A DNA stretch of 64,000 nucleotides from Altibacter sp. HG106 (GTDB taxonomy: Bacteria > Bacteroidota > Bacteroidia > Flavobacteriales > Flavobacteriaceae). Shown piece after piece: positions 4,698-24,302 of this stretch. The translations under genes were made by a program, and so were the position numbers. Position 1 is the first letter of the stretch. Each line of letters starts with the position of its first letter. The notes beneath the pieces were generated by a model. That model was given only the letters and a program-made list of their open reading frames with translations. It was not told where the DNA came from and made no database searches. Location of the stretch: the NCBI RefSeq assembly GCF_028561755.1, contig NZ_JAQQTD010000001.1, positions 496,001-560,000 on the forward strand, written 5' to 3'.

Positions 4698-4750
4698 GGA
4701 AACAATAGCCTTCGATGAAAGGCGTTATCTAGAATACGGTGCTGAATGCT

Positions 4751-6520
4751 ATGAAATATATGTTGCTGAGTGTTTTCTTCCTTTTCGGAATGAAAACATC
4801 TGTGGCACAGGTTCAAGATACTATTTCAACCACCAAAGTTTCGGTACAATCGGGTTACCTCGAAAAAAAGCCCGAATTTCCCAACGCTATTATCTATACG
4901 AAAGACACATCGGGACAAGTATATATTGTCCATGAAGGCGTGGAAATGTGGTGTGATCAGGCCTATGTCTATCTCAATGATAATTTTGTAAAAGCCTACG
5001 GAAACGTTCGCTTAACGCAGGGCGACACCGTGACCATGCGTAGTAAATACGGGGAGTACAACGGAAACACTTCTTTTGCCTTTGCCAGTGGCGACGTAGT
5101 GCTTACGGAACCCAAAACAACCCTTCGAACCGACACCCTTTACTTTGATCGGGTAAAACAACAAGCTTACTACCGCACCGGCGGTACCGTTCGCGATACG
5201 GCAAGCACCCTTACCAGCAGGATTGGCCGCTATTATGCGGAAAGTAAGAAGTATCAGTTCTTGTCGAAGGTCAAAATCGTCAATCCGAAGTACACCGTCA
5301 ATTCAGAGCAATTAGATTTTTACTCAGAAACGGGAGGCGCGTACTTATACGGTGAGTCTACTATAGTGAGCGAAACCAGCACGGTCTATTGTGAACGAGG
5401 GTATTACGATACGCGAGGCGATACGGGATATTTCGTTAAAAATTCCAGGGTCGATTATGACAACAGAACGCTCTATGGCGATAGTATCTATTTCGATCGG
5501 AATAAGAGTTTCGCTTCCGCTACCAATAACATCAAAGTATTAGACACGCTAAACAAAAGTATTATTCGGGGGCATTATGCCGAAGTATTCCGCGAGAAAG
5601 ATTCGGTATTTATCACCAAAAGGGCGGTGGCGGTAACGCTTCGGGACAACGACTCTATTTACATACATGCCGACACCTTGCAAGTAACCGGGAAACCCGA
5701 ACGGCGGATCATTAAAGGCTTCTACCGGGCGCGCATGTTTAAACCCGGACTTCCTTCCGAAGCACCCACCAGTGGAAAATGTGATTCGATCTACGTAGAT
5801 CAGGAAGCTGGCATTACCAAACTATTGCGTGATCCGGTACTATGGAATGGCGAGAACCAAATGACCGGAGATACCATACACATTCTTTCCAATAAAAAGA
5901 CCGAAAAGTTAGATACCTTGAAGGTCTTTAACAATGCGTTCTTGATTCAAATAGATAGTAGTGGCTACAATCAGGTAAAAGGAGAGCGACTCATCGGGCT
6001 GTTCACCAATAACCAATTAGACACCGTTAATATTATTAAGAATACGGAAGCCATTTACTTCTTTAGGGATGATGAAGGGGAGCTCGTAGGGATCGACAAC
6101 ACCACCTCCAGTAGCATACAGATGTATCTGGAAAATCAGCAAATTACCGGAATTCGCTTCGTGAAAAAAGTACCGGGTAAGATATACCCTCCTTCTGAAT
6201 TTCCAAACAATGCCCGTATCCTTCCTGGTTTCAATTGGCGCGGTGAAGAACGTTTGTTTACCGTGGCCGATCTATTTCAAGGGAAACCGAAGCCTGTACT
6301 TCCTAAAATTCGAGGTATTCCACTGCCTGAGGACGAAGGAGCTTTCTTCGAAGATGTTCCTGAAGAGGAGCTATTGCTTCCTGAAATTTCCAAATTAAAA
6401 CCGGAAGATTTGCAGAATCGGGAAGACGACCCAAAACCGATGACGCGACCGAAATTGGATTCGACACAACAAAAACGACCCCCGGATCCAAGGCAACTGA
6501 CTCCAAAGAAAGACCAATGA
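4751..6520 (+). CDS. OstA/LptA-like envelope protein
   Basis: A 589-residue secreted protein of the OstA-like family of Bacteroidota, related to the periplasmic LptA that carries lipopolysaccharide between membranes. ATG 4751 is preferred over GTG 4739 because it gives a clean signal peptide ('MKYMLLSVFFLFG', cleavage near 'SVAQ'). The body has repeated beta-jellyroll strands of the LptA type ('GDTVTMRSKYGEYNGN', 'TLRTDTLYFDR', 'VNSEQLDFYSETG', 'NRTLYGDSIYFDR'). The last 60 or so residues are rich in Pro, Lys and Asp. It is far longer than E. coli LptA (about 185 residues), so it may span more periplasm or combine roles. Its end overlaps the next gene by 4 bases (ATGA), indicating translational coupling. 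Confidence 0.8.
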   Translation: MKYMLLSVFFLFGMKTSVAQVQDTISTTKVSVQSGYLEKKPEFPNAIIYTKDTSGQVYIVHEGVEMWCDQAYVYLNDNFVKAYGNVRLTQGDTVTMRSKYGEYNGNTSFAFASGDVVLTEPKTTLRTDTLYFDRVKQQAYYRTGGTVRDTASTLTSRIGRYYAESKKYQFLSKVKIVNPKYTVNSEQLDFYSETGGAYLYGESTIVSETSTVYCERGYYDTRGDTGYFVKNSRVDYDNRTLYGDSIYFDRNKSFASATNNIKVLDTLNKSIIRGHYAEVFREKDSVFITKRAVAVTLRDNDSIYIHADTLQVTGKPERRIIKGFYRARMFKPGLPSEAPTSGKCDSIYVDQEAGITKLLRDPVLWNGENQMTGDTIHILSNKKTEKLDTLKVFNNAFLIQIDSSGYNQVKGERLIGLFTNNQLDTVNIIKNTEAIYFFRDDEGELVGIDNTTSSSIQMYLENQQITGIRFVKKVPGKIYPPSEFPNNARILPGFNWRGEERLFTVADLFQGKPKPVLPKIRGIPLPEDEGAFFEDVPEEELLLPEISKLKPEDLQNREDDPKPMTRPKLDSTQQKRPPDPRQLTPKKDQ

Positions 6521-7815: not shown

Positions 7816-7842
7816 ATTAGAAAGTAACGTTAACACTTGCGT

Positions 7843-9243
7843 ATGCAATTAAGCCCTAACGAGCATAACAACTTTTCTCTTTCCCGGTTTGAATCCATGT
7901 TAAAGACTAATAATGTGTATTTCTTCGACTCTGAAGAGTTCGAGAATATCATTCAGTATTACTTGGAGAACGGGAAAATCGCCTTGGCCAAAAAAGCCAC
8001 GAAGCTAGGTTTGGAACAGCATCCAACAGCGACGAACTTAAAGCTTTTTCAGGTTGAGATGCATATTTTTGAAAATGAACTAGATACTGCGGAAGCCCTG
8101 CTAGATGACCTCTACGTCTTGGAGCGCTTTAACGATGAAGTCTATATTCAGAAGGCCAACATCTATTCCCGTAGGGATGAACATTCCAAAGCCATCCAAC
8201 TCCTGGAACAGGCTTTAGAAATTACCAGCGACGAAGCCGATGTGCTTTCCTTGATCGGCATGGAATATCTATTCCTCGAAGACTTCGAAAATGCGAAGTA
8301 CTATTTCATGAAATGTTTAGAGCAAGACGAATCTGATTATTCGGCGCTCTACAATATTGTTTACTGCTTTGATTATCTGGAAGAGCACGAAGCGGCCATT
8401 GATTACCTCAACGATTTCTTAAATAAGAACCCGTATTGCGAAGTCGCCTGGCATCAGGTCGGAAAGCAATATTACACGCTAAAAGACTACCAGAAAGCGC
8501 TGGCTGCCTATGATTTTGCGATTATTAGTGATGACCAGTTTATTGGCGCCTATCTTGAAAAAGGAAAGGTGTTGGAACGTCTTAAACGCTATGAAGACGC
8601 CATTGAAAGCTACAGTATCACCTTGGGCTTAGATGATCCTACGTCTTTTGCACTACTGCGCATTGGAAAATGTTACGAGAAGCTTGGGAAAGATGAACTT
8701 GCCCTTCAGTTTTACACCAAATGTGTGGAAGAGGATGCCTTACTCGACAAAGGTTGGATTGCGATTACCGATTATTACTTCCGAAAGAAAAATTATCAGA
8801 AAGCCCTCTATTACATAGACAAAGCCATTCATATTGATAGTGAAAATGTGTTGTATTGGAAACGCTACGCTAAGATCAACAATCATTTGAACCTTTATGA
8901 AGAGGCCGAGCAGGGATACCGTAGAGCCCTTGAATTAGGAAATTACGAGCAGGATACCTGGTTAACACGTTGTGATATATTGATCCATTTAGGAGAATTT
9001 AAAGCAGCGATCACAAATCTCTTTCAGGCGATCGAATTCTATTCGGAAAGCGCAGAAATTGAATATAGACTCGCAGGCTTGTTCTTTGCTACGAACGAAG
9101 AACGAAAAGGAATTTTCCACTTGCGTAATGCCCTGAAATACGACGCCGAATACATCATAGTACTGGAAGAACTTTTTCCGTCTGTTTATGAAAATGCGCG
9201 GGTACAGGAAATTATCGCGCAACACAAAAACCCTTCTGTTTAA
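7843..9243 (+). CDS. Tetratricopeptide-repeat protein
   Basis: A 466-residue protein made almost wholly of TPR units, with typical repeats such as 'AIQLLEQALEITSDEADVLS', 'ALAAYDFAIISDDQFIGAYL' and 'ALYYIDKAIHIDSENVLYW'. No signal peptide or membrane segment is evident, so it is probably a cytoplasmic scaffold for protein-protein contacts. ATG 7843 is preferred over an in-frame TTG at 7837. The composition is rich in Tyr, Glu and Phe, usual for long TPR solenoids. It has its own predicted promoter and is followed at once by the DUF368 pair. Family-level function is clear; its partner is unknown. Confidence 0.85.
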   Translation: MQLSPNEHNNFSLSRFESMLKTNNVYFFDSEEFENIIQYYLENGKIALAKKATKLGLEQHPTATNLKLFQVEMHIFENELDTAEALLDDLYVLERFNDEVYIQKANIYSRRDEHSKAIQLLEQALEITSDEADVLSLIGMEYLFLEDFENAKYYFMKCLEQDESDYSALYNIVYCFDYLEEHEAAIDYLNDFLNKNPYCEVAWHQVGKQYYTLKDYQKALAAYDFAIISDDQFIGAYLEKGKVLERLKRYEDAIESYSITLGLDDPTSFALLRIGKCYEKLGKDELALQFYTKCVEEDALLDKGWIAITDYYFRKKNYQKALYYIDKAIHIDSENVLYWKRYAKINNHLNLYEEAEQGYRRALELGNYEQDTWLTRCDILIHLGEFKAAITNLFQAIEFYSESAEIEYRLAGLFFATNEERKGIFHLRNALKYDAEYIIVLEELFPSVYENARVQEIIAQHKNPSV

Positions 9244-9279: not shown

Positions 9280-10263
9280 ATGCCCAAACGTTCCCTACTT
9301 CAGTTAATAGTTGTCACTGCTAAAGGTCTCGCTATGGGCGCCGCCGATGTGGTTCCGGGTGTTTCTGGAGGTACCATCGCCTTTATTTCAGGGATCTACG
9401 AAGAACTCATTGAGACCCTTCATAAATTAGACCTCGGTTTTTTTAAGATCTGGAAACATCACAGCTTTAAAACAGCATGGCGCGCCTATAACTTACCCTT
9501 CTTAACGGCCCTGTTTTCTGGAGTACTCATAAGTATTCTATCGCTAGCCAAGCTAATTTCCTGGCTGCTCACACACCACCCTATTTTGGTTTGGTCGTTC
9601 TTCTTCGGCCTTATCATAGCGAGTATCGTGTATGTGGGCAAACAAGTGAACCAATGGAACATCCTTACCGGTTTGGCGCTTTTGGTGGCTGTGGTGGTAT
9701 CATATCTCATTACCATTTCAGAGCCTATGGGTTCTCCCTCTAGCATGTGGTTTTTATTCGTTGCAGGGTTTATCGCGATCATTGCAATGATACTTCCCGG
9801 GATTTCCGGCAGCTTTATCCTATTGCTTTTAGGAGCCTATACCGGCGTTATTGGCACCTTGAGTAATTTACTTGAAGGAGCCTTTAACGGTAATTGGAGC
9901 CTATTTGCGGATGCCGCGTTACGACTTGCTATTTTCGCTCTGGGCGCGGTCGTGGGACTTAAAGTCTTTTCTCGCGTCTTGAATTGGATGTTTTTACATC
10001 ATAAAAACCTAATTCTCGCCATACTTACCGGCTTTATGGTAGGTGCCTTAAACAAAATTTGGCCTTGGAAAGAAGTGCTTCAATATCGCATGAATCACAA
10101 TGGAGAAGAGGTGCCTTTCTTAGAAAAAAGCATCTGGCCAACACAGTATCCCGATGACCCGCAATTGTTAGCTGCGGTTGCCCTCATGATCGTTGGGTTT
10201 TTTAGTATTTTCCTTCTGGAGCGCTTAGCGGTTCAAAAGCCATCCGACTATGATACAGCATGA
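9280..10263 (+). CDS. DUF368 membrane protein, copy 1 (PopT-type polyprenyl-phosphate transporter family)
   Basis: A 327-residue inner membrane protein with about eight hydrophobic segments. The family signature occurs twice: near the N-terminus ('MGAADVVPGVSGGTIAF', followed by 'GIYEELIETL') and again mid-protein ('IAMILPGISGSFILLLLGAY'), an internal inverted-repeat-like arrangement. DUF368 proteins (PopT) have been linked to returning undecaprenyl phosphate, the lipid carrier of cell-wall and surface-sugar synthesis, across the inner membrane; that function is known for the family, not shown here. The stop overlaps the next gene's start by 14 bases. The tandem arrangement with copy 2 is the notable feature. 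Confidence 0.88.
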   Translation: MPKRSLLQLIVVTAKGLAMGAADVVPGVSGGTIAFISGIYEELIETLHKLDLGFFKIWKHHSFKTAWRAYNLPFLTALFSGVLISILSLAKLISWLLTHHPILVWSFFFGLIIASIVYVGKQVNQWNILTGLALLVAVVVSYLITISEPMGSPSSMWFLFVAGFIAIIAMILPGISGSFILLLLGAYTGVIGTLSNLLEGAFNGNWSLFADAALRLAIFALGAVVGLKVFSRVLNWMFLHHKNLILAILTGFMVGALNKIWPWKEVLQYRMNHNGEEVPFLEKSIWPTQYPDDPQLLAAVALMIVGFFSIFLLERLAVQKPSDYDTA

Positions 10264-11278
10264 ACCGAGAACATTTAGTGATAAGGTTTGGCTAGTGATC
10301 AAGGGGCTTTCTATGGGAGCAGCCAACAAGGTTCCCGGAGTTTCAGGTGGGATGGTAGCCTTTGTAGCCGGCTTTTATGAGGAATTCATTTACTCGCTTC
10401 AAAAGATTAACACCAAGGCCTTTGCCTTACTCTTCAACGGTCGATTTCGAAGTTTCTTTCGCTACATCAACGGTCGGTTTCTGGGATTGCTCATCTTAGG
10501 AATGGTAATTAGTTATTTCAGCGTTTCGAAAATTCTGGATTATTTGATCGTGCATTTTGAACTGTGGGTTTGGAGCGCCTTCTTCGGAATGATTATCGGC
10601 TCTATTTATTATGTCGCTAAAGATTTTGGAGCGTGGAACAGAAAATATCTTGGCTATCTGCTCTTAGGGGTGATCGCTGGGGTTAGTATTAGCTTCTTAG
10701 AACCCGCCAAACAAAACAGTAATCTTTGGTTTGTTTTTTTCTGCGGAATCATTGGCGTGTCGGGAATGACCCTCCCGGGCTTGTCGGGCTCGTTTATACT
10801 AATCTTGTTGGGCAATTATGTGTTGTTATTAGTAGACGCGGTAAATGCGCTGTTCGACACCATTACCGATATCCTTCGGTGGAGTTTCGACTTCGTTAGC
10901 GATCCCGTTCGCTTAGAATTACTCCAGGTGCTGGCCGTGTTCTCTCTTGGGTCGGTGGTTGGACTTGTATCGCTCTCTCATGTGCTGGCCTATGTACTCA
11001 AGCATTTTAAAAAGGCCACGTATGCTGTCATTATTGGCTTTATTACAGGATCGCTTGGGGTTGTTTGGCCTTGGAAAACAAAATTGCTTCAGCGCGACCC
11101 CAACGGATCGGTCATGTACGACGCCAACGGAATGGAGATTATTAGTGGCTACAATCGCTATTGGCCTTCAGAATTTTCGCTCGACAATGTTCTAGCGGTT
11201 TTCTTTATTTTTGTGGGAATAGGACTGGTATTAAGTCTAGACCTGTACTACAAAAAGAAATCGCGTCCCCATGGCTAA
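10250..11278 (+). CDS. DUF368 membrane protein, copy 2 (PopT-type)
   Basis: A 342-residue paralogue of the gene just upstream, with the same two signatures ('MGAANKVPGVSGGMVAF' and 'VSGMTLPGLSGSFILILLGNY') and matching membrane topology, including a shared 'WPWK' motif late in both proteins. Sequence divergence outside the motifs is considerable, so the duplication is not recent. It starts 14 bases inside copy 1 and ends 8 bases inside aroE, so all three are probably translated together. It could act as a separate carrier-lipid transporter or form a heteromer with copy 1; neither can be decided from sequence. Confidence 0.88.
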   Translation: MIQHEPRTFSDKVWLVIKGLSMGAANKVPGVSGGMVAFVAGFYEEFIYSLQKINTKAFALLFNGRFRSFFRYINGRFLGLLILGMVISYFSVSKILDYLIVHFELWVWSAFFGMIIGSIYYVAKDFGAWNRKYLGYLLLGVIAGVSISFLEPAKQNSNLWFVFFCGIIGVSGMTLPGLSGSFILILLGNYVLLLVDAVNALFDTITDILRWSFDFVSDPVRLELLQVLAVFSLGSVVGLVSLSHVLAYVLKHFKKATYAVIIGFITGSLGVVWPWKTKLLQRDPNGSVMYDANGMEIISGYNRYWPSEFSLDNVLAVFFIFVGIGLVLSLDLYYKKKSRPHG

Positions 11279-12011
11279 ATACGGATTGGTAGGAAAGAAC
11301 ATCGACTATTCTTTTTCCAAACAGTTCTTTACCGAAAAATTCAAAGAAGAGCGTCGTAAAGATTCCTACGAGAATTTCGATTTGGCCTGCATTGAGCTAC
11401 TTCCCGAAATCATTAACGACCTACGCGGATTAAAGGGGCTGAACGTGACCATTCCGTATAAAGAAACAGTCATTCCCTTACTCGACCGGGTGGATGAGGA
11501 AGCTATGAAAATTGGGGCTGTGAACACCATCAAAGTGCTAAAGAACGGCAAGCTATCGGGCTACAATACCGATCATTATGGTTTTGCTCAGGCACTCATC
11601 CCATTTTTGCCCATTAAAGATAAAACCGCGTTGATTTTGGGAACGGGTGGTGCTTCTAAGGCCATAGCCTATGTACTGGACACGCTTAATTTTTCGTATC
11701 AACGCGTTACCAGAGCCCCTTCAAAGTCGCTCCTAACCTATCAGGACCTCAGTGAGTATGTGATGAAAAACCATTTCCTCATCATCAATTGCACCCCGCT
11801 AGGAACCTATCCTGATATCACTGCCTGTCCTAAAATACCCTATCACTTTATCTCCAAAGACCACGTTTTATTCGATTTGATCTACAATCCGCCACAAACC
11901 GAATTTCTCAAACGAGGGTATGCGCAGGGAGCTCGTATTTCAAATGGACGTGTGATGTTAGAACAACAAGCCCTCAAAGCCTTATCTATCTGGCGTTCAA
12001 AAGGAGTTTGA
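11271..12011 (+). CDS. aroE: Shikimate dehydrogenase
   Basis: A 246-residue NADPH-dependent reductase turning 3-dehydroshikimate into shikimate in aromatic amino acid synthesis. Motifs: substrate-binding 'NIDYSFSKQFF', catalytic Lys in 'LNVTIPYKETVIPLL', 'GAVNTI', 'YNTDHYGF' and the nucleotide-binding loop 'LGTGGASKAIAYVL'. It is somewhat shorter than E. coli AroE (272 residues). Its start lies 8 bases inside the second DUF368 gene. No functional link between the two families is known to me; the coupling may only reflect expression. Confidence 0.93.
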   Translation: MAKYGLVGKNIDYSFSKQFFTEKFKEERRKDSYENFDLACIELLPEIINDLRGLKGLNVTIPYKETVIPLLDRVDEEAMKIGAVNTIKVLKNGKLSGYNTDHYGFAQALIPFLPIKDKTALILGTGGASKAIAYVLDTLNFSYQRVTRAPSKSLLTYQDLSEYVMKNHFLIINCTPLGTYPDITACPKIPYHFISKDHVLFDLIYNPPQTEFLKRGYAQGARISNGRVMLEQQALKALSIWRSKGV

Positions 12012-12098
12012 AGCCTTCAAAATAAAACGGTACGCTTTGCCGTTTGGGTTACAAATAGTATATTACCCCATTGTTGACGAACCGTAACATTGAAAAAA

Positions 12099-14153
12099 AT
12101 GTCTGAAAAAGAATTGCCCGAAAAAGAAAACGAAAAAACGCCTTCAAACGATCCACAAGCGTCCGCTTCCGAAGCTACCCCCAAGCATTTAAAGGAGGAG
12201 GATAACGCGTCCGGAACAGCCGCTACAGATACTCCTTCCGAAGAAGCTACCTTAGAAAATGCCATGGTGGAAGAAGCTACTGAACACCAGGAGAAGGAAC
12301 CACCAACCGCCGAAAAGAAAAACCCGGAAGCGACCACCGATGCCGATCTTGATGAGGAGGATACCGGTGCGGAAGACGAAGAAGAAATTGCCTCATCAGA
12401 CGATGATGAGGAAGATGACGATCAGGAAGAAGATTCGGTAGATTATCACGATCTATCCAAAAAAGAGCTGATCGCAGCCTTCAAAAAACTGCTGAATGAC
12501 AAACCCGTTCAGGCCATCAAAAATGATGTGGACGAGATTCGATCTGAGTTCAATGCCCAGTTTGATGAAGAAGTAGCCGCCAAAAAAGAAGAATTCTTGG
12601 CAGAAGGCGGAAACATTATCGACTTCTATTACACCACTCCCCTTAAAAAAGAATTTAATTCGCTCTATTTCGATTACAAAGAAAAACGAAACAAATACTA
12701 TAAGAATCTCAAACGGGATCTCCATGCCAATCTCGAAAAGCGAAATGAACTTATCGAAGAACTAAAAGGCTTGTTAGGAACGGAAGAAAACATCAATACC
12801 ACCTACAAGCATTTTAAAGACATTCAGGAGCGCTGGCATACCGCCGGTCCTATTCCGCGTGATAAGTACAACCTAACATGGAACACCTATCATCACCATG
12901 TAGAAAACTTCTACGATTTCCTACACCTTAATCGAGAGTTTCGCGATTTAGATTTTAAACACAATCTCGATCAAAAGCTTAAGTTGATAGGCCGAGCCGA
13001 AGAACTTTCGCAACAAAAAGATGTAAAAAAGGCCTTCCGAGAATTACAAATGCTCCACAAGATGTGGAAAGAAGAAGTAGGTCCTGTGGCGAAGGAGTAT
13101 CGCGATGAAGTTTGGGATAAATTCAGCGCAGCGACCAAAGTAATACACGACAAACGTCAATCGCTTATTGAAGAGGAAGAAAAAGCCTATGAGCAAAACT
13201 ACCTCATCAAAGAAGAGATCATTAAAAAAATTGAGGCGCAGAAAAAGCTGGAAAATCCTAGCCATCAAAAATGGCAAAAGGCGATCAAGGAAGTTCAGGC
13301 GCTGCGCGACGCCTATTTTGCGGCTGGACGGGTTCCCAGAGCTAAGAATAAAGAAATATGGAAACGTTTCAAGGAAGCAACGCGACAATTTAACCGCGCG
13401 AAGAATTCGTACTACAAAGAGCAGAAAAAAGCGCAGTTCGAGAATCTGGAGAAGAAGAAAGAACTAGTAGCTATTGCGGAAGCCAATAAAGACAGTGATG
13501 ATTTTGATACGGTGACGCCGCTTATGAAGAAAATTCAGAGTGACTGGAAAAAAATCGGGCACGTACCGCGGAAGCATAGCGACAGTATTTGGAAAGCTTT
13601 TAAGTCGGCTTGCAACCACTATTTCGACCGCTTACACGCCAAGAAAAATGAAGCCAGCGCTGAAGAAAACGAAAATCTAGAAAAGAAAGAAGCCTTGCTC
13701 GAGAAGGTTTCTAATTTAGAACTAAGCGGGTCTCATGAAGATGATCTGAGTACCATTAAGGAAATGATTTCCACTTGGAAAGACATTGGTCGTGTTCCTT
13801 ACAAAAAACGAAATATCGACCGAAAGTTTAACAAGGTATTAGACGGGCTCTTCAAAAAATTAGATGTAAGCAAGAAAGATTCGGAACTCATTCGCTTTGA
13901 CAACAAGGTGAACGCAATGGTTTCACAAGAAGACGAGCGCAAATTAAAGAACGAGCATTTCTTTATCTCCAAAAAGATCAAGGAGGTTCAGGATGAAATT
14001 CGACAATTAGAAAACAATCTCGGCTTTTTTCAGCATGTAGACGACGACAATCCTTTGGTGCGTGAAGTACATAAAAACATCGCAAAGCACAAAGAACAAT
14101 TAGAAGTGTGGAAGGCCAAGTTGAAAAAAATAAAGAAGATCCGAAGCGAGTAG
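12099..14153 (+). CDS. DUF349 repeat protein with acidic N-terminal region
   Basis: A 684-residue protein. ATG 12099 is chosen over an in-frame TTG at 12090. Residues 1 to about 120 are low-complexity and very rich in Glu, Asp, Ala and Ser, with runs such as 'DDDEEDDDQEEDS', and are likely disordered. The rest is charged, helical and coiled-coil-like, with five DUF349-type units marked by W-x(3)-G-x-[VI]-P ('RWHTAGPIPRDKY', 'MWKEEVGPVAKEY', 'DYFAAGRVPRAK'-like, 'DWKKIGHVPRKH', 'TWKDIGRVPYKK'). No signal peptide or membrane segment is seen. The family's role is not settled; a cytoplasmic nucleic-acid or ribosome-associated role is only a guess. Its last 46 bases overlap the next gene. Confidence 0.85.
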   Translation: MSEKELPEKENEKTPSNDPQASASEATPKHLKEEDNASGTAATDTPSEEATLENAMVEEATEHQEKEPPTAEKKNPEATTDADLDEEDTGAEDEEEIASSDDDEEDDDQEEDSVDYHDLSKKELIAAFKKLLNDKPVQAIKNDVDEIRSEFNAQFDEEVAAKKEEFLAEGGNIIDFYYTTPLKKEFNSLYFDYKEKRNKYYKNLKRDLHANLEKRNELIEELKGLLGTEENINTTYKHFKDIQERWHTAGPIPRDKYNLTWNTYHHHVENFYDFLHLNREFRDLDFKHNLDQKLKLIGRAEELSQQKDVKKAFRELQMLHKMWKEEVGPVAKEYRDEVWDKFSAATKVIHDKRQSLIEEEEKAYEQNYLIKEEIIKKIEAQKKLENPSHQKWQKAIKEVQALRDAYFAAGRVPRAKNKEIWKRFKEATRQFNRAKNSYYKEQKKAQFENLEKKKELVAIAEANKDSDDFDTVTPLMKKIQSDWKKIGHVPRKHSDSIWKAFKSACNHYFDRLHAKKNEASAEENENLEKKEALLEKVSNLELSGSHEDDLSTIKEMISTWKDIGRVPYKKRNIDRKFNKVLDGLFKKLDVSKKDSELIRFDNKVNAMVSQEDERKLKNEHFFISKKIKEVQDEIRQLENNLGFFQHVDDDNPLVREVHKNIAKHKEQLEVWKAKLKKIKKIRSE

Positions 14154-17142: not shown

Positions 17143-17958
17143 ATGAATCACCTACAACCCATTATTGAGAACGCCTGGAACGACAGATCGCTCCTTTCCC
17201 AACCTGAAACCACTGATGCCATTCGCTCGGTCATCGACCTTCTGGACGAAGGAAGTTTGCGTTGCGCGGCCCCTACCGCAGCGGGTTGGCAGGTGAATGA
17301 ATGGGTCAAAAAGGCAGTGGTTTTATACTTTCCCATTCAAAAGATGGAAACCTTAGAAGCAGGGATCTTCGAGTATCACGATAAGATCCCTTTAAAACGA
17401 GGATATCAAGAAAAAGGAATTCGGGTGGTCCCACATGCCGTAGCACGTCATGGCGCCTATATTTCCAAAGGTGTTATTATGATGCCTAGTTACGTCAACA
17501 TTGGTGCGTACGTGGATGAAGGCACCATGGTAGATACCTGGGCCACCGTAGGAAGTTGTGCTCAAATAGGTAAGAATGTGCACCTAAGCGGCGGCGTGGG
17601 TATTGGAGGCGTTCTGGAACCCTTACAGGCCGCACCTGTGATTATCGAAGACAATGCTTTTATTGGGTCTCGATCGATCGTGGTAGAAGGCGTTCGCGTA
17701 GAAAAAGAAGCTGTGCTTGGTGCGAATGTAGTGCTTACCGCTTCCACCAAGATCATTGATGTGACCGGTAGCGAACCGTTGGAAATGAAAGGTCGGGTTC
17801 CTGCTCGCTCGGTAGTCATTCCGGGAAGTTATACCAAGAAATTTCCGGCCGGAGAATTTCAGGTGTCTTGCGCGTTAATTATAGGCAAGCGAAAAGAGAG
17901 CACCAACAAGAAGACGAGCTTGAACGACGCGCTACGCGAATATGACGTAGCGGTTTAG
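17143..17958 (+). CDS. dapD: 2,3,4,5-tetrahydropyridine-2,6-dicarboxylate N-succinyltransferase
   Basis: A 271-residue left-handed beta-helix enzyme of the succinylase branch of diaminopimelate/lysine synthesis. The hexapeptide repeat region is clear ('VNIGAYVDEGTMVDTWATVG', 'NVHLSGGVGIGGVLEP', 'IEDNAFIGSRSIVVEGV'). The open frame extends upstream to 16816 but that part is antisense to ruvX; ATG 17143 gives the normal family length and starts with the expected helical domain ('LQPIIENAWNDRSLL'). The product feeds peptidoglycan cross-links and, through lysA at 45.7 kb, lysine. Its stop shares a TTAG quartet with the convergent Kdo-kinase-like gene. Confidence 0.95.
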   Translation: MNHLQPIIENAWNDRSLLSQPETTDAIRSVIDLLDEGSLRCAAPTAAGWQVNEWVKKAVVLYFPIQKMETLEAGIFEYHDKIPLKRGYQEKGIRVVPHAVARHGAYISKGVIMMPSYVNIGAYVDEGTMVDTWATVGSCAQIGKNVHLSGGVGIGGVLEPLQAAPVIIEDNAFIGSRSIVVEGVRVEKEAVLGANVVLTASTKIIDVTGSEPLEMKGRVPARSVVIPGSYTKKFPAGEFQVSCALIIGKRKESTNKKTSLNDALREYDVAV

Positions 17959-18716
17959 CCATTTCGTTTCCGCTTGCGGCGGCGCAACTTCTTAGCATTG
18001 CCTTTTTTCTGAAATGCGCGACTGTAAGCCGTCATCAATTCATGGATCTTTTCTGAAGTTGCCCCATATAACTTGGCATACACCGGCGCCATAATGTTGA
18101 TCATGGTTTTTGACAACCAAAGCCTTCGGAAGTTTTTCATCCGTTTCTCTAAAGACATTTTTTCAAACCGCATTCGGTTCAGATCGATCAAATAAAAATC
18201 ATAGGTGTTATCCTCCTTATTAAGAATTAAGGTATTACCCGGAGAATGATCCAAAAAATTGATCTCTTTTTCATGGAGTTCGAACGTAAAAGCAGCAAAT
18301 TGCGCTAAAATTTCCTTCCGCCTGGGATAGTTGGGGTTGTGATTCAAAACTCGAAAATCGAGATCGTAATCCACATAGCGTGAAATATAAAAACTCTCCC
18401 GTAAGCCACCGTCAAAGCATTCTTGATACGCCACCGGGAAGGGTGTTTTAATTCCGCTTTCTATAAGTCGGATGGCATATTCGTACGAGCGCTTCGCTTT
18501 GCTTTTCCGAAAATATTGATACACCCAACGTTGAAAAGCATTCGGCGTCTTGAATTTTTTAAAGGTGTAGTACGTCCCCTCGATGGCGATTTTCTTAATT
18601 TGATTTCTTCCTTCTTCCACCAAAAATTCGCCAGCCGTCTCAAAGGAGTTGATGGCCGTCTGAATTTCGGGAGCAATCGATTTAAAATCCGGGTGTACGC
18701 GGAAGGTTTCCTTCAT
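17955..18716 (-). CDS. Kdo-kinase-like lipopolysaccharide kinase
   Basis: A 253-residue kinase-fold protein of the KdkA/WaaP/RIO-like group that phosphorylates Kdo or heptose of the lipopolysaccharide inner core. The catalytic loop is 'LDHSPGNTL' (Asp156, Asn161), followed by the metal-binding 'YLIDLNRMRF' (Asp178). The C-terminus is strongly basic ('KKLRRRKRKRNG'), suggesting contact with phospholipid headgroups at the inner membrane. It is divergent from the GT9 heptosyltransferase-like gene across 51 bases and heads the core-sugar locus. The exact acceptor, Kdo or heptose, cannot be told. Confidence 0.82.
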   Translation of the reverse strand: MKETFRVHPDFKSIAPEIQTAINSFETAGEFLVEEGRNQIKKIAIEGTYYTFKKFKTPNAFQRWVYQYFRKSKAKRSYEYAIRLIESGIKTPFPVAYQECFDGGLRESFYISRYVDYDLDFRVLNHNPNYPRRKEILAQFAAFTFELHEKEINFLDHSPGNTLILNKEDNTYDFYLIDLNRMRFEKMSLEKRMKNFRRLWLSKTMINIMAPVYAKLYGATSEKIHELMTAYSRAFQKKGNAKKLRRRKRKRNG

Positions 18717-18740
18717 CCTACATTTTAATAACTAAGAAAA

Positions 18741-18748
18741 AAAAGATA
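18741..18748 (-). promoter_or_regulatory. Predicted -7 element of the Kdo-kinase gene, overlapping the divergent GT9 promoter region
   Basis: On the minus strand TATCTTTT lies 24 bases before the kinase ATG. On the plus strand the same bases continue as ATACTTTG (18746-18753), a weaker -7-like element 14 bases before the GT9 ATG. The sequence AAAGATACTTTG is close to palindromic, so the two divergent promoters would compete for polymerase. The plus-strand element is a poor match. Confidence 0.35.
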
Positions 18749-18767
18749 CTTTGCGAAGGTAACTTAT

Positions 18768-19841
18768 ATGAAACAAATACTCGTAATACAGAACAAACGA
18801 ATTGGCGATGTGCTCATCAGTTCGGTGATTGCCCAGAACATCAAAAAAGTGTTCCCGGAAAGTAAAATCACTTACTTTGTTTACGATTATACCGCCGGTG
18901 TTCTTGAAGAAAACCCAAACATCGATCACATTATCCGTATTTCCGAAGCCTGGCTGAAGAAGCTTCCCAATTTGGTGAAAACCCTACGGAAAGTACGGCG
19001 CGACAACTACGATATCATCTTCGATCCATACGCTAAATTTCAAAGCAGAATGATGTGTTTGTGTAGTGGTGCCGAGTATCGAATCGGACTCAAACGGGCG
19101 CACAAACAATTAAAGCTTCCGTTCTATACCCATCCTATCAGTTTTTTGGAACAAGGTAGCAAGCCCTGCGGAAAGGCGATCGAAGATCGGGTACATATGG
19201 TGAGCGATGTGTTTTTGTTGAAGACCCCAGATGAAGTGCCGAAGATCTACCTCACTTCCGAAGAAAAACAGTACGATGCCATTGCCCATATCCAACAACC
19301 GGTGTTGATGCTCGGGGTGCTGGGCAGCACTCCCAACAAATCGATGCCCTACCCTTATATCGCACGTATTGTCGACTGGATTACAGAACACTATCAGGTG
19401 ACTGTGCTCTTCAATTACGCTCCTCACCAAAAGGCCGAAGCAAAGCGCATTTATGAACAGTGTGCGCATCAAGAACAAATTGAACTTGACATTTACGAAA
19501 ACAGCATACGCGGATTTATACGACTCATGAACCAATGTAAGCTGCTGATCGCCAATGAAGGCGGCAGTGTACACATAGCAAAAGCGCTGAACAAACCTAC
19601 CTTTACCGTCTATTCTCCCTTTATTCACAAAGCGCATTGGGCGACTTTTGAAGATGGCGTTATGCATAAATCCATCCATCTGCGAGACGAAAAACCGGAA
19701 GCCTATTCACAGTTTTCACGAGAGGAACGAAAAAAAGTAGAAGCGAATCCGCAGAAATTGTATCAATTATTAACGCCTGAATTGATTATCGCTTCACTCG
19801 CTCCGTTTATGGAGCATCACTTGGGTATGCACAAGAAATAG
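18768..19841 (+). CDS. Glycosyltransferase family 9 (heptosyltransferase-like)
   Basis: A 357-residue GT-B enzyme of family GT9, whose members add ADP-heptose or related sugars to the lipopolysaccharide inner core. The N-terminus has the hallmark 'ILVIQNKRIGDVLISSVIA', the C-domain 'LGVLGSTPNKSMPYPYI' and the nucleotide-sugar-binding 'LIANEGGSVHIAKALNKPT'. No signal peptide; it is expected on the cytoplasmic face of the inner membrane. It is divergent from the Kdo-kinase-like gene and convergent with a GT2 gene. No heptose synthesis genes are in the window, so the donor is inferred only from the family. Confidence 0.88.
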   Translation: MKQILVIQNKRIGDVLISSVIAQNIKKVFPESKITYFVYDYTAGVLEENPNIDHIIRISEAWLKKLPNLVKTLRKVRRDNYDIIFDPYAKFQSRMMCLCSGAEYRIGLKRAHKQLKLPFYTHPISFLEQGSKPCGKAIEDRVHMVSDVFLLKTPDEVPKIYLTSEEKQYDAIAHIQQPVLMLGVLGSTPNKSMPYPYIARIVDWITEHYQVTVLFNYAPHQKAEAKRIYEQCAHQEQIELDIYENSIRGFIRLMNQCKLLIANEGGSVHIAKALNKPTFTVYSPFIHKAHWATFEDGVMHKSIHLRDEKPEAYSQFSREERKKVEANPQKLYQLLTPELIIASLAPFMEHHLGMHKK

Positions 19842-19847
19842 AATAGG

Positions 19848-20681
19848 TTAAGAGGGTACGGGTTGCGGTCCTTTCTGAATGCCGTGTTCGGTCCACGGAC
19901 TCCCGCCTTCGCGCGTTTCCTTTCGGATGGCATTGTTTTTTGCAATGGATTCTTCATTCTTATACCCGCGGGGATGGTCTAAATGGATCACTACCGCATT
20001 GTAGCGAATTTGTTTGCTGTGAATTCCGTAGTTGATAAGTCGCTCGCCGAGCTCTCTATCTTGCCCACCGTACTGCATGCGCTCGTCGAAACCATTTACG
20101 GCGAGAATGTCTTCCTTCCAGCCGCTGGCGTTATGACCATTCCAACTGGCGTTGGTAGGCGTAATGGTGTTCAGTAAACTAGCTCGGGTTGCACCGGCAC
20201 TCAGTTTATTGTTTTTAAACGATGATGGTAATCCTTGCTCCTTAAGCCACTGCACATCGAAACAACGCTCGGCATAAATATCTTCTTTGCCAATCGCTTC
20301 TGAAATGTCCATCGGAAGCATAAAATAACCACCCGACAAGAAATAGCCTAACTCTCTAAATTTCACATGTTGCTCCACAAAATCCTTTCTTGGAATACAA
20401 TCGCCATCACTCATGATGATATACGGAGCACTGCATTTCAGAATCGATTTATTGAGGATTTGCGACTTCTGAAATCCGCGATCCTCGTGCCAGACATGAA
20501 TTATTGGATAAAACAGTTCTTCCCGCATGGCATCCAACAGTTCTTTCGTCGCCGCTTTAGAGCCATCATCGGCGATTACGACCTCAAAATTGCGATAGGT
20601 TTGATTGTTGTAGCCCCACAACACCTTTTGAAGCCAGGCTTCGCTGTTGTACGTACTGATAATTATGGAAGTATCGATCAC
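19848..20681 (-). CDS. Glycosyltransferase family 2 with galactosyltransferase-type C-terminal motif
   Basis: A 277-residue GT-A enzyme. The start is GTG at 20681, as no ATG lies ahead of the N-terminal strand 'IIISTYNSEAWLQKVLWG'. The donor-binding DxD is in 'IIMSDGDCIPRKDF', and the acceptor-side motif 'WNGHNASGWKEDIL...GFDERM' is followed by 'GGQDRELGERL', a Glyco_transf_7C-like pattern seen in galactosyl- and N-acetylhexosaminyl-transferases. It is divergent from the next GT2 gene. It probably adds an outer core sugar; sugar and linkage are not predictable. Confidence 0.85.
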   Translation of the reverse strand: MIDTSIIISTYNSEAWLQKVLWGYNNQTYRNFEVVIADDGSKAATKELLDAMREELFYPIIHVWHEDRGFQKSQILNKSILKCSAPYIIMSDGDCIPRKDFVEQHVKFRELGYFLSGGYFMLPMDISEAIGKEDIYAERCFDVQWLKEQGLPSSFKNNKLSAGATRASLLNTITPTNASWNGHNASGWKEDILAVNGFDERMQYGGQDRELGERLINYGIHSKQIRYNAVVIHLDHPRGYKNEESIAKNNAIRKETREGGSPWTEHGIQKGPQPVPS

Positions 20682-20698
20682 GGCAATTAGATTCTCAA

Positions 20699-20706
20699 CA
20701 AAGGTA
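20699..20706 (-). promoter_or_regulatory. Predicted -7 element of the GT2 gene at 19.8 kb
   Basis: TACCTTTG on the minus strand is an exact TAnnTTTG match, 17 bases before the GTG start at 20681. It supports use of that GTG. Confidence 0.5.
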
Positions 20707-20737
20707 CGGTTCTTTTTCAGTTTGAAGAAAAACAGGG

Positions 20738-20745
20738 TATCTTTA
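20738..20745 (+). promoter_or_regulatory. Predicted -7 element of the GT2 gene at 20.75 kb
   Basis: TATCTTTA lies only 4 bases before the ATG at 20750. With the minus-strand element at 20699-20706 it makes a compact divergent promoter region within 68 bases. A transcript starting 6-8 bases downstream would have almost no leader. Confidence 0.4.
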
Positions 20746-20749
20746 CCCC

Positions 20750-21487
20750 ATGCCCAGGCTCTCAGTCATAATTCCCACCTATAACGAAGCTGCCTATGTG
20801 GAAGCTGCATTACAATCGGTTCAGTTTGCCGATGAGATCATCTTGATCGATTCCTTCAGTGAAGATGATACCCTTCTGAAAGCCAAACCTCTGGTAACGA
20901 AAATCATCGAACGGAAATTCGACAATTTTTCCAATCAAAAGAATGCTGCCTTAGAACAAGCCACCGGCGATTGGGTGTTGTTTCTCGATGCCGATGAACG
21001 CATTACCCATTCCCTTCAACTGGAAATAGAAGGCGCCATAGCGTCAACAACCTATTACGGGTACAAACTCAACTTTCCGCATTTTTTTATTAATCGTTTT
21101 CTCTACCATCACAATAATGAGGTACTCCGACTCGTACGCAGGGACGGGGCGTATTTCAGCGGACTCGTACACGAGAAGCTGCACTGCAATGGTGCTGTAG
21201 GAAAATTGAAAAACCCTGTGCTGCATTTTACCTACAAAGGATTGAACCATTTTATTAAGAAGAAAGAACAATACGCCTGGTTTCAGGCAGAGCAGTTACA
21301 TAAAAAAGGAAAAAAACCGTCCCTCTGGCTCATGTTTTTAAAACCTACGTACCGCTTCTTTAGCTCCTACATTTTACGGGGCGGGTTTCGCGATGGGATT
21401 CCGGGATTGGTAATCTCCGGAATAAATGCCTATGGCGTCTTTCAGCGCTATGCGAAGCTCATCTTATTACGCCGTGGAATTCGTTAG
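20750..21487 (+). CDS. Glycosyltransferase family 2, WaaE/KdtX-like, copy 1
   Basis: A 245-residue GT-A enzyme similar to the WaaE/KdtX group that adds a glucose-type residue to the lipopolysaccharide inner core. Motifs: 'LSVIIPTYNEAAYVEAAL', 'FADEIILIDSFSEDDT', 'NFSNQKNAALEQA', DxD in 'VLFLDADERI', and the acceptor-region 'SGLVHEKLHCNG'. The C-terminal basic, aromatic segment ('KPTYRFFSSYILRGGFRDG') probably touches the membrane. The following gene shares each motif, so the pair is a tandem duplication with clear divergence. Confidence 0.88.
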   Translation: MPRLSVIIPTYNEAAYVEAALQSVQFADEIILIDSFSEDDTLLKAKPLVTKIIERKFDNFSNQKNAALEQATGDWVLFLDADERITHSLQLEIEGAIASTTYYGYKLNFPHFFINRFLYHHNNEVLRLVRRDGAYFSGLVHEKLHCNGAVGKLKNPVLHFTYKGLNHFIKKKEQYAWFQAEQLHKKGKKPSLWLMFLKPTYRFFSSYILRGGFRDGIPGLVISGINAYGVFQRYAKLILLRRGIR

Positions 21488-21544
21488 GGTTTTCAAGAAG
21501 CATTAACCTCACAAATGGGCCGTTTCTAATCGTTTTAAAATATG

Positions 21545-21552
21545 TACTTTTA
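21545..21552 (+). promoter_or_regulatory. Predicted -7 element of the second WaaE-like gene
   Basis: TACTTTTA matches TAnnTTTG except for the last base and lies 18 bases before the TTG start at 21571, in an 83-base gap. It supports independent transcription of the second copy. Confidence 0.35.
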
Positions 21553-21570
21553 CTCAAATTTTGAACGCAC

Positions 21571-22332
21571 TTGAATACCCGTCCGCTTATTTCGGCCCTC
21601 GCCATCACAAAGAATGAAGCCCAAGTGCTCGAAGGATTTCTGAAGCAACTAGATTTTGCCGATGAGATCATCATTGTAGATTCTTTTAGTACAGATGGCA
21701 CTCAGGAAATTGTTCGCCAGCATCCTACGGCGCAATTGATAGAACGTCCTTTTAAAAACTTTAGCGATCAGAAGAACTTTGCCATCGAGCAGGCCAAGCA
21801 TCCGTGGATCGTTTTTTTTGATCCCGACGAAGAAATCACTCTGTCGCTAAAAGAAGAAATCTTGCAAAAAGTAGCCCAACCTGAAGCGGTTGCTTATAGG
21901 GTGAAGCGAGTGTTGTATTTTATGGGAAAACGATTGAAATATAGCGGGTTTCAAAACGATTATGTGATTCGGCTGTTTCAGAAAGCACATTGTCGCTATG
22001 ATGGTAGTTTGGTTCACGAAACCATCAAAGCACAGGGAAAAGTGGCTACTTTTAAAGAAGTGCTCCCCCACCACACCTATCGCGATTTCGATCAATACAC
22101 CGCCAAGCTCCATCAATACAGCAAGTTAAAGGCCGTGATGATGTTTCAGAAAGACAAGCGCGCCCGATGGATCCATTTTATCGTGCGGCCCTGGTATCGT
22201 TTTTGGCATCAATACATCATCAGGCTGGGCATTTTGGATGGAAAAGAAGGCTTCGTACTCGCCTACCTCAATGCGTTTACCGTTTTTAAACGCTATATTC
22301 ACCTCTGGCTATTGTACCGCAAAATTGAGTGA
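21571..22332 (+). CDS. Glycosyltransferase family 2, WaaE/KdtX-like, copy 2 (TTG start)
   Basis: A 253-residue paralogue of the preceding gene ('ISALAITKNEAQVLEGFL', 'FADEIIIVDSFSTDGTQ', 'NFSDQKNFAIEQA', 'VFFDPDEEI', 'GSLVHETIKAQG'). The start must be TTG 21571: an in-frame TGA lies at 21562-21564 and no ATG or GTG precedes the first strand of the fold. The DxD motif is DPD here versus DAD in copy 1. It is likely to act at a neighbouring linkage of the same core oligosaccharide. Its stop overlaps the upstream GTG of the next frame, but the next gene more likely begins at ATG 22335. Confidence 0.87.
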   Translation: MNTRPLISALAITKNEAQVLEGFLKQLDFADEIIIVDSFSTDGTQEIVRQHPTAQLIERPFKNFSDQKNFAIEQAKHPWIVFFDPDEEITLSLKEEILQKVAQPEAVAYRVKRVLYFMGKRLKYSGFQNDYVIRLFQKAHCRYDGSLVHETIKAQGKVATFKEVLPHHTYRDFDQYTAKLHQYSKLKAVMMFQKDKRARWIHFIVRPWYRFWHQYIIRLGILDGKEGFVLAYLNAFTVFKRYIHLWLLYRKIE

Positions 22333-22334
22333 CT

Positions 22335-23402
22335 ATGAAACGTATTTTCTTAGAATCGCACAATCTCAAAAACCCGTATTCGGGCTTCGGACAATACAAC
22401 TATCATCTCATCAAAGGGTTGGCAGCGCAGGACCTTTCGGGGTGGCGTATCACCCTGCACGTGAAGAATGTATCCCGATGGAAAAAAGAATTTGGCAAGA
22501 CCTTCCGCTATCGGAAATATCGGTCGTTAACACGGCATAAACCCTTCCGAATCAAAAAGAAATACCACCTTTGGCACAGTCTGAATCAAAACATTAAGAT
22601 TGAACCCTTCTTTCAGTTGCCGTATGTCTTAACAGTGCACGATATTCACTTTGTAAAAGAAGGCTCCGAACACATGCGGCAGAAACTCCGCGCCCAATTT
22701 GAAAAAAAACTCAAACGCTGTCATGCGATCATCTATATTTCAGAATTTGCCAAAAAAGACACTCAGCAGCATTTTGACGTTCCCAACATTCCGCAATACG
22801 TAATCTACAACGGAAACACTATCCCGGAGGTTGCGGTGAAAAGTCTTCCAGAGCCTACAATACTTCCTAAAAAGCCTTTTCTTTTTTCAATAGGCGACTT
22901 TACCGATCGCAAAAACTTTAAAACGCTGGTAGATATGATGCGCTACTTGCCGGAGTACCACCTGGTCCTGGCCGGAAACAATACGTCGGTCTATGCCGAT
23001 ACGCTTCGGAAACGCATTACCGATCACCAATTGGACGATCGGGTGCACCTTCCTGGAAAAATTAGTGAAGCCCACAAGCAATACTATTTGGCGCATTGTG
23101 AGGCGTTTTTGTTTCCGTCGAAACGAGAAGGCTTCGGTATTCCTCCACTGGAAGCCATGCACTTCGGAAAGCCTATTTTTATTTCTAACAATACCTCGCT
23201 TCCGGAAATTGGCGGAGAACACGCCTTTTACTGGAATCATTTTGAGGTACAGTATATGGTTTCGGTCTTCAAAAAAGGAATGCAGCAATATCAAGAGAAA
23301 AAATCGTTTTACACAGAATATTATCAATCGCGTGCCAAACAATTTGATTGGAAAAAGACCGCAGCCGAGTATTTGAACGTGTACCAAAAACTCGTATCGT
23401 AA
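22335..23402 (+). CDS. Glycosyltransferase family 4 (GT-B)
   Basis: A 355-residue retaining GT-B enzyme. The N-domain has 'NPYSGFGQYNYHLIKGL' and 'YVLTVHDIHFVKEG', and the C-domain has the family's ExxxxxxxE motif in 'FPSKREGFGIPPLEAMHFG'. ATG 22335 is chosen over a GTG at 22329 that overlaps the previous stop. No membrane segment is seen. It begins 2 bases after the WaaE-like copy 2 stop, so the two are one transcript. It probably transfers a mannose-, glucose- or galactose-type residue; the donor is unknown. Confidence 0.87.
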   Translation: MKRIFLESHNLKNPYSGFGQYNYHLIKGLAAQDLSGWRITLHVKNVSRWKKEFGKTFRYRKYRSLTRHKPFRIKKKYHLWHSLNQNIKIEPFFQLPYVLTVHDIHFVKEGSEHMRQKLRAQFEKKLKRCHAIIYISEFAKKDTQQHFDVPNIPQYVIYNGNTIPEVAVKSLPEPTILPKKPFLFSIGDFTDRKNFKTLVDMMRYLPEYHLVLAGNNTSVYADTLRKRITDHQLDDRVHLPGKISEAHKQYYLAHCEAFLFPSKREGFGIPPLEAMHFGKPIFISNNTSLPEIGGEHAFYWNHFEVQYMVSVFKKGMQQYQEKKSFYTEYYQSRAKQFDWKKTAAEYLNVYQKLVS

Positions 23403-23411
23403 TAACACCCT

Positions 23412-24302
23412 ATGCCCACGGTTTCTATCATCATTATCAACTACAATACGGCCGCCTACACGGTGCAAAGTGTGGCGGCTGTCCAGCGAGAAACCGCAGA
23501 ATCACTGCCCTATGAAATTATTGTGGTGGATAATGCTTCGGAAGAAGAAGATTACAACAAATTAGCCGATCAATTGCCCAATGATGATCGTATTCAATTG
23601 ATCAGAAGCGAAGTGAACACAGGCTTTGGAGGAGGTAACATGCTTGGGTTCCAACAAGCAAAAGGGGTCTATCTGTTGTTTTTGAACAATGATGCTTTTT
23701 TGCTGAATGACTGCCTTTCCAGGCTACACGAATTCCTGGGAAGCCACCCCAAGGTTGGCGTTGCTACGGCTCAAAACTACGACCAAAATGGGAGGTTTGT
23801 TCCGTCTTTTGATCATAACAAAGGGCTGCGCCGTCTCTTACTGGGACGTGGATTTTTAGAGACGGTCTTTCCGAAACGATATCCAAAACGCAAACAAGAG
23901 TATGCTCAACCAATTGAAGTCGACTGGGTAAATGGAGCCTTTTTATTCTTCCGAAGAGAGGCATTTGAAGCAGCCGGCGGCTTTGACACAGAAATTTTTC
24001 TATATTTTGAAGAAATGGATATATGTCACCGATTGCGTGAAAAAGGCTATAGCAGCATGCTTGTACCCGACGCTAAAATAGAACATCATCAAGGGGCGAG
24101 CACCCAACCGAGACCTGCGCTGAGCATGGAAAGCTATCGTTCGTATTTTCATGTCATCAAAAAATCCAGAGGTGTCTTTGTACTTTTGATCATAAAATTT
24201 TATTTAGGCCTCGTGTTTCTATTGAAGCCCAAAAAGCGATATTTACTCCCCGTACTGTGGAACAGCAGTCTAAAAAATCATTCTATTAAGCCAACCCTAT
24301 GA
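23412..24302 (+). CDS. Glycosyltransferase family 2, rhamnosyltransferase-like
   Basis: A 296-residue GT2 enzyme resembling WbbL-type rhamnosyltransferases: 'VSIIIINYNTAAYTVQSV', 'EIIVVDNASEEEDY', a DxD variant in 'LLFLNNDAFLL', then the typical 'VDWVNGAFLFFRREAFEAAG' and 'FLYFEEMDICHRLREKGY'. A hydrophobic stretch near the C-terminus ('FVLLIIKFYLGLVFLL') may anchor it to the inner membrane. It ends in a 4-base ATGA overlap with the tsaC-like gene, so the core locus is transcribed into a tRNA-modification gene. Confidence 0.86.
   Translation: MPTVSIIIINYNTAAYTVQSVAAVQRETAESLPYEIIVVDNASEEEDYNKLADQLPNDDRIQLIRSEVNTGFGGGNMLGFQQAKGVYLLFLNNDAFLLNDCLSRLHEFLGSHPKVGVATAQNYDQNGRFVPSFDHNKGLRRLLLGRGFLETVFPKRYPKRKQEYAQPIEVDWVNGAFLFFRREAFEAAGGFDTEIFLYFEEMDICHRLREKGYSSMLVPDAKIEHHQGASTQPRPALSMESYRSYFHVIKKSRGVFVLLIIKFYLGLVFLLKPKKRYLLPVLWNSSLKNHSIKPTL

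Follow-up and report, generated by a model that had tools for sequence, protein, structure and literature searches.

The locus analysed here raises the question of why a bacterium should keep two DUF368 genes side by side, and whether their products work as one unit, on separate tasks, or as two transporters of one substrate. The window, by which we mean the whole stretch of 64,000 nucleotides of Altibacter sp. HG106 that was analysed, contains two such genes, both complete and here called A and B, followed directly by an aroE-type gene; a genome-wide profile search showed that they are the sole PF04018 matches of this genome. In passages of PMC9876793, DUF368 proteins are described as translocases that recycle undecaprenyl phosphate (Und-P) and that function at alkaline pH, their phenotypes depending on Na+ in Vibrio and not in the other species tested. 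The tie to Und-P recycling made in the initial annotation of this locus is thus supported at the level of the family. According to the opening of the PMC11474028 abstract, it is unknown how Und-P is flipped back, and excerpts of the published literature already mention proteins that carry either a single DUF368 domain or two.

The DUF368 pair and its gene row

The features of the locus are the following.

7837..9243, + strand: TPR-repeat protein, a conserved neighbour on the upstream side of the DUF368 gene (TPR families; in 79/80 named loci, selected by similarity to B)
9280..10263, + strand: copy A, acid-form DUF368 protein (PF04018) with Asp23 in signature 1 and with Lys259 (305 bits; AlphaFold2 mean pLDDT 90.0)
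9340..9375, + strand: signature 1 of A, AADVVPGVSGGT, residues 21-32, the acid being residue 23 (in the model, the helix is broken at residues 25-29)
10250..11278, + strand: copy B, Asn-form DUF368 protein with Asn26-Lys27 in signature 1 and with Val271 at a position that is mostly Lys in the A type (253.4 bits; AlphaFold2 mean pLDDT 88.5)
10319..10354, + strand: signature 1 of B, AANKVPGVSGGM, residues 24-35, the Asn being residue 26 (in the model, the helix is broken at residues 28-32)
10250..10263, + strand: 14 bases shared by the reading frames of A and B (coordinates)
11271..12011, + strand: aroE-type shikimate dehydrogenase, sharing 8 bases with B (domain match and coordinates)
12090..14153, + strand: DUF349 protein, conserved downstream neighbour (PF03993; in 75/80 named loci)

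The layout originally described, two diverged DUF368 paralogues that overlap each other by 14 bases and then aroE by 8, is exact: A encodes 327 amino acids and B 342, and the two share 37% identity across 324 aligned columns. The aroE product matches the shikimate-dehydrogenase N domain and scores 169.7 bits with TIGR00507, under the cut-off of 200.2.

Among the named loci, that is, the best 80 of 584 by similarity to B, A was followed by B in 80/80 and the complete row aminotransferase-TPR-A-B-aroE-DUF349 was present in 72/80. With gene starts assigned mechanically, the median gap in these loci was 0 between A and B (range -82 to 281, n=80) and -29 between B and aroE (range -134 to 64, n=79). 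In the 29 loci newly fetched for the family draw (L063-L091), B also lay directly after A in every case. Beyond the order too, DUF368 is found ahead of aroE, in many cases preceded by a TPR gene, either immediately or at a distance of about 1 kb, and with DUF349 downstream; the TPR protein may be a functional partner. Depending on the genome, the slot before aroE is occupied by A alone, by B alone, or by A and B together. We propose that the pair arose by tandem duplication in an ancestor of the Flavobacteriales, ahead of aroE in the conserved row TPR, DUF368, aroE, DUF349, and that A and B are probably co-expressed. In a Parabacteroides plasmid record, too, DUF368 is immediately preceded by a TPR gene.

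Two classes within one family

Both copies match nearly the whole PF04018 profile (A 305 bits, B 253.4 bits; the Pfam gathering cut-off is 26), and their nearest named proteins are both from Flavobacteriaceae, at 71% for A (Aequorivita) and 79% for B (Marinirhabdus). Against NCBIfam model NF052564, which describes the VCA0040-type polyprenyl-phosphate transporter and has an equivalog cut-off of 400 bits, both fall below, A with 371.5 bits and B with 225.2. Two internal repeats with the PG-x-SG re-entrant signature are present in both copies (cross-repeat BLAST E 2e-5), and the AlphaFold2 models predict a helix-break-helix at both signatures in each.

The initial annotation held that each copy retains the two signatures. 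This is correct for signature 2 (LPGxSGSFIL), but not for signature 1, which reads AADVVPGVSGGT in A and AANKVPGVSGGM in B, where an Asn replaces the conserved acid; the loss of the conserved acidic residue from the second copy, named there as evidence against a heteromeric or specialised flippase, is what we found. When acid forms are recognised by an Asp or Glu three residues before the signature-1 Pro, A is one of them (D23) and B is not (N26), and because of this Asn we class B as a DUF368 variant. Compared with the described DUF368/PopT/VCA0040 proteins, A is close to the Vibrio-type model, whereas the window differs in having two fixed paralogues, of which B lacks both the signature-1 acid and Lys259. 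Calling both copies 'DUF368' or 'polyprenyl-phosphate transporter' without distinction obscures the existence of two classes.

Searches by sequence and by fold yielded no convincing solved relative. Neither copy matched PF09335 (DedA domain) at E 0.001 or PF02673 (BacA/UppP), a PDB sequence search with A returned 0 hits, and a PDB fold search with B gave no Foldseek hit under E 0.8. The best VIA-align Z scores, 8.6 for B and 6.2 for A, were both to ZIP transporters and lie within the range that the tool rates as common. BacA (L268-L281) and DUF368 both act on the same carrier lipid, and the second motif of this genome's BacA, AMLPGISRSG, resembles AMILPGISGSF of copy A. In a profile-profile comparison of the two families, the hhalign probability was 5.4% for A-type and 0.5% for B-type proteins, which is not significant.

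Distribution of the pair

In a draw of 249 genomes of the window's family, at least 90% complete and with genera sampled evenly, DUF368 was present in 248 (201/202 genera): 240 genomes had two matches, 8 had one and 1 had none. The figure of 240 is a count of matches and includes five genomes first listed with three, the third hit being sub-cut-off on inspection; with even sampling, genus g2, which mostly lacks DUF368, counts once. In the class draw outside the order, each of the 61 DUF368-matching genomes had one match (60 over the cut-off) and none had two copies. The order draw had DUF368 in 110/196 genomes; 15 listed g2 genomes had none, and two had only A. When the residue at the acid site was read in all 110 DUF368-bearing genomes, 54 were Asn-only (including G126, with two near-identical copies, and G032, with a broken gene), 33 acid-only (including G169, whose gene is split at contig ends) and 22 had both forms; the remaining one, G050, has a B-type protein with Phe at this site. 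Most proteins of these 110 genomes were also included in the trees of 89 or 385 proteins described below. Single-form genes of the order draw lie nearly always beside aroE.

The description of the locus as a fixed pair is therefore apt for the family (240/249 with two copies) but not for the order, in which 87 of the 110 DUF368-bearing genomes have a single form; a predominance of single-copy genomes, which had been named as counter-evidence to the pair hypothesis, is what the order draw shows (54 plus 33 against 22 pairs and 1 other). These figures bear on the first proposal of the initial annotation, a heteromeric flippase, in its strict form an obligate A-B complex with one acidic and one neutral half that flips Und-P as a unit. 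Such a complex would fit the fixed order, the near-zero or overlapping spacing (a median gap of 0 in the best 80 of 584 loci by similarity to B) and the near-universal pairing within the family. However, either form occurs without the other in most of the order draw, and singles exist within the family itself, both acid-form (G405, G590, G484, G553) and Asn-form (G493, G575, G534). Furthermore, of the 22 genomes with both forms, A and B are adjacent in 19 and on separate contigs in 3, all of genus g13. The obligate heteromer is thus unsupported and we consider it improbable; a facultative A-B complex is possible.

Two observations on individual loci may be added. In genus g13 (L025, L028, L032, L112-L114), A and B were on different contigs in 3/3 draft genomes sampled, and the stretches read contained no aroE. 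In G032 (L104/L267), the only DUF368 gene of a draft genome is broken by stops, reflecting either a pseudogene or a sequencing error.

A single acid-to-Asn swap

In a tree of 89 proteins, all Asn-form proteins fell into a single clade of 38 (SH-aLRT 100, stem 0.7). In a larger tree of 385 proteins this clade had 188 members, including the early-branching singles G493 and G575 (FastTree support 0.82), and its inner 186 members were grouped with support 0.96. At site 23 (A numbering), Asn is present in 187/188 proteins inside the clade and Asp or Glu in 197/197 outside. The 80 named loci had been fetched by patterns, one of which contains the Asn; without them the counts are 107/108 and 118/118, respectively. 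As judged from these sequences, the swap has a single origin. Because the A type is paraphyletic in the 89-protein tree and the chosen outgroup did not form one clade, the trees do not fix the branch on which the duplication occurred. A long-branched Halomonas sequence adjoins the B clade in the 385-protein tree, probably as an artefact.

Other sites changed along with the acid. Site 169 is Ala in 197/197 proteins outside the clade and Gly or Ser in 188/188 inside; site 186 is Asn in 186/188 inside and mixed outside; and Lys259, conserved in 188/197 proteins outside, is mostly Val or Ile inside. Of 300 eligible columns, 21 were class-specific. Eight of these lie in the second re-entrant segment (28 eligible columns; p 0.0002, the segment having been picked after the list was seen) and only one, the acid itself, lies in the first (29 eligible; p 0.89). 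Copy A would thus retain the ancestral acid where the first re-entrant helix is broken, while in the clade of B Asn would have taken the place of the acid, Val or Ile mostly that of the conserved Lys near WPWK, and the tip of the second re-entrant segment would have been rebuilt. The residue after the signature-1 Asn is Lys in 130/148 B proteins, a count inflated by the pattern-fetched loci, and Val or Ile in most single-copy families. The proteins of G493 and G575 (L310, L311), which form the sister group of all other Asn-clade members, have an intermediate set of residues (N23, I259, S169, N186).

The idea that Asp23 and Lys259 form an ion pair was considered, since both are lost in the B clade, yet it was discarded: of 184 A-type proteins, 8 lack the Lys and still have the acid.

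The conservation of these sites also bears on the view that the two copies reflect plain redundancy or gene dosage and that the Asp-to-Asn swap is functionally neutral. Although relatives with a single copy of either form live, hardly any variation is seen across the 385 proteins at sites 23 and 169 on either side of the split, or at site 186 among members of the B clade. Drift would not preserve such sites, and we regard neutrality as very improbable. The possibility that B is a degenerate second copy was rejected as well, on the evidence set out for the alternatives. A first comparison, in which B was more conserved than A in 80/80 loci, was set aside as biased because the loci had been selected by similarity to B. 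In a less biased test, B was the more conserved copy within the family (616/780 comparisons; 37/40 genomes), whereas outside the family it was mostly the less conserved one (12/15 comparisons; B more conserved in 3/15).

Other Und-P flippases in genomes with and without DUF368

The window genome has one PF09335 protein, which is not UptA-type, as it scores 24.8 bits with the NCBIfam UptA model (cut-off 250). For UptA-type DedA proteins, the other known Und-P flippases, we used a single query, a UptA/YqjA-like DedA of a DUF368-less genome, which is itself sub-cut-off (best NCBIfam hit NF008102, 128.9/236 bits). Strong matches (E <= 2e-72) were found in 18/18 DUF368-less genomes tested, whereas 114/123 DUF368-bearing genomes tested gave none, nor did the window genome. 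Clear matches occurred in three DUF368-bearing genomes (G064 and G191, which have only A, at about 1e-100, and G422 at 5e-45), and weak ones in six (G102, G167, G009, G023, G044, G026). The order draw contains 86 genomes without DUF368; the 18 tested come from 20 listed, two very small ones (G016, G028) being left out, and represent two genera (g2, g16) of two families. The mutual exclusion of DUF368 and UptA-type DedA therefore rests on two independent events, perhaps three with G422. In the latter, a genome of the window's family, a broken DUF368 fragment lies at a contig end (L314) and an UptA-like DedA is present, possibly reflecting a replacement in progress or an assembly fault.

Of particular relevance are the 55 genomes that have only B-type proteins (54 with Asn, 1 with Phe). 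No UptA-type match was found in 52 of them, 32 of the 55 being less than 90% complete. The three that matched belong to family f9, one DedA of which scores 117.7 bits with the UptA model. PF09335 was absent from 10 of 17 B-type-only genomes searched, including all seven genomes of family f11 in the panel; these seven all contain BacA and PF00953. BacA was present in 21/22 genomes tested and has been proposed, in a passage of PMC9876793, as an Und-P translocator, so cells with only B might not depend on B. With this caveat, the distribution suggests that B works alone, as dozens of genomes would otherwise be left with no recognised Und-P flippase. In the window genome, A and B together are, by sequence, the only recognised Und-P flippases.

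It may also be that B has left Und-P, moving another polyprenyl lipid or a phospholipid, or regulating A. The loss of both the acid and the conserved Lys would be in line with this, as would its 225.2 bits against the 400-bit NCBIfam cut-off, and the 8/21 class-specific sites in the second re-entrant segment (a segment chosen post hoc; 1/21 in the first) suggest an altered substrate path. An analogy with DedA proteins points the same way. According to passages of PMC10127716, the acids at the first re-entrant tip of DedA proteins are thought to bind protons, and their absence is read as a lack of proton-driven transport; partly for that reason the COG0398 subfamily, which lacks these acids, is judged unlikely to flip Und-P, in a split that parallels that of DUF368, the UptA-type Und-P flippases (COG0586) having them. 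However, neither DUF368 copy has a DedA domain, and the acid-less DUF368 protein is often the sole copy. Moreover, a B that does not flip Und-P would leave 52 of the 55 B-type-only genomes without a recognised Und-P flippase, unless BacA serves. We therefore hold such a change of role to be unlikely, if the most credible of the alternatives.

A proposed pair of flippases with a different drive

On balance, we favour the view that A and B are two separately competent Und-P flippases that stem from an old tandem duplication and differ at the membrane re-entrant tips and probably in their drive, or in the pH or ion conditions under which they are active. Most likely they would share one substrate. 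We infer that A could be coupled to ions or protons, and that B could be uncoupled or coupled in another way. A more specific version, which we put forward tentatively and to which we give distinctly less credence, is that B represents a second mechanistic class of DUF368, an acid-less flippase uncoupled from protons and sodium (scramblase-like) and sufficient alone in many Flavobacteriales; the pair of the Flavobacteriaceae would then combine a coupled and an uncoupled flippase.

In the open-licence literature, covered by titles, the starts of abstracts and passages of PMC9876793, PMC12826051, PMC12893004, PMC5764234 and PMC10127716, we found no description of the acid/Asn split of DUF368, and in the same literature neither a study of DUF368 in Bacteroidota nor an experiment on the role of the acid in DUF368. 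A natural Asp-to-Asn swap of single origin, found alone in dozens of genomes, offers a direct test of the role of the acid in ion coupling, and A and B constitute a matched pair in one gene row for such a test.

Surface sugars and the core-sugar locus

The second proposal of the initial annotation was that the copies may be specialised, for example one for the cell wall and one for surface sugars, and that a core-sugar locus in the window would draw on related carriers. In the version considered here, A would flip Und-P for peptidoglycan while B would serve the surface sugars. Such a division might be expected in bacteria that, like the window genome with its four PF02397 matches, have several transferases initiating surface sugars, and a core-type sugar locus does lie nearby, at 17958-24299, with a WaaP-like kinase, one GT9 (heptosyltransferase family), four GT2 and one GT1 protein. 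LPS-core transferases normally use nucleotide sugars, so this locus, although real, is not an argument for a dedicated Und-P carrier. Nor do the PF02397 counts follow the pair: they are 2-6 in acid-only genomes of family f7, 0-2 in Asn-only genomes of family f11, and 0 in a genome with the pair (G010, 92% complete). In addition, matches to PF00953 (MraY-type) were present in 14/14 Asn-only genomes searched. Specialisation by pathway thus finds no support in these counts, and we think it quite improbable. Elsewhere in the window, an OstA/LptD-N-like protein is encoded at 4739-6517.
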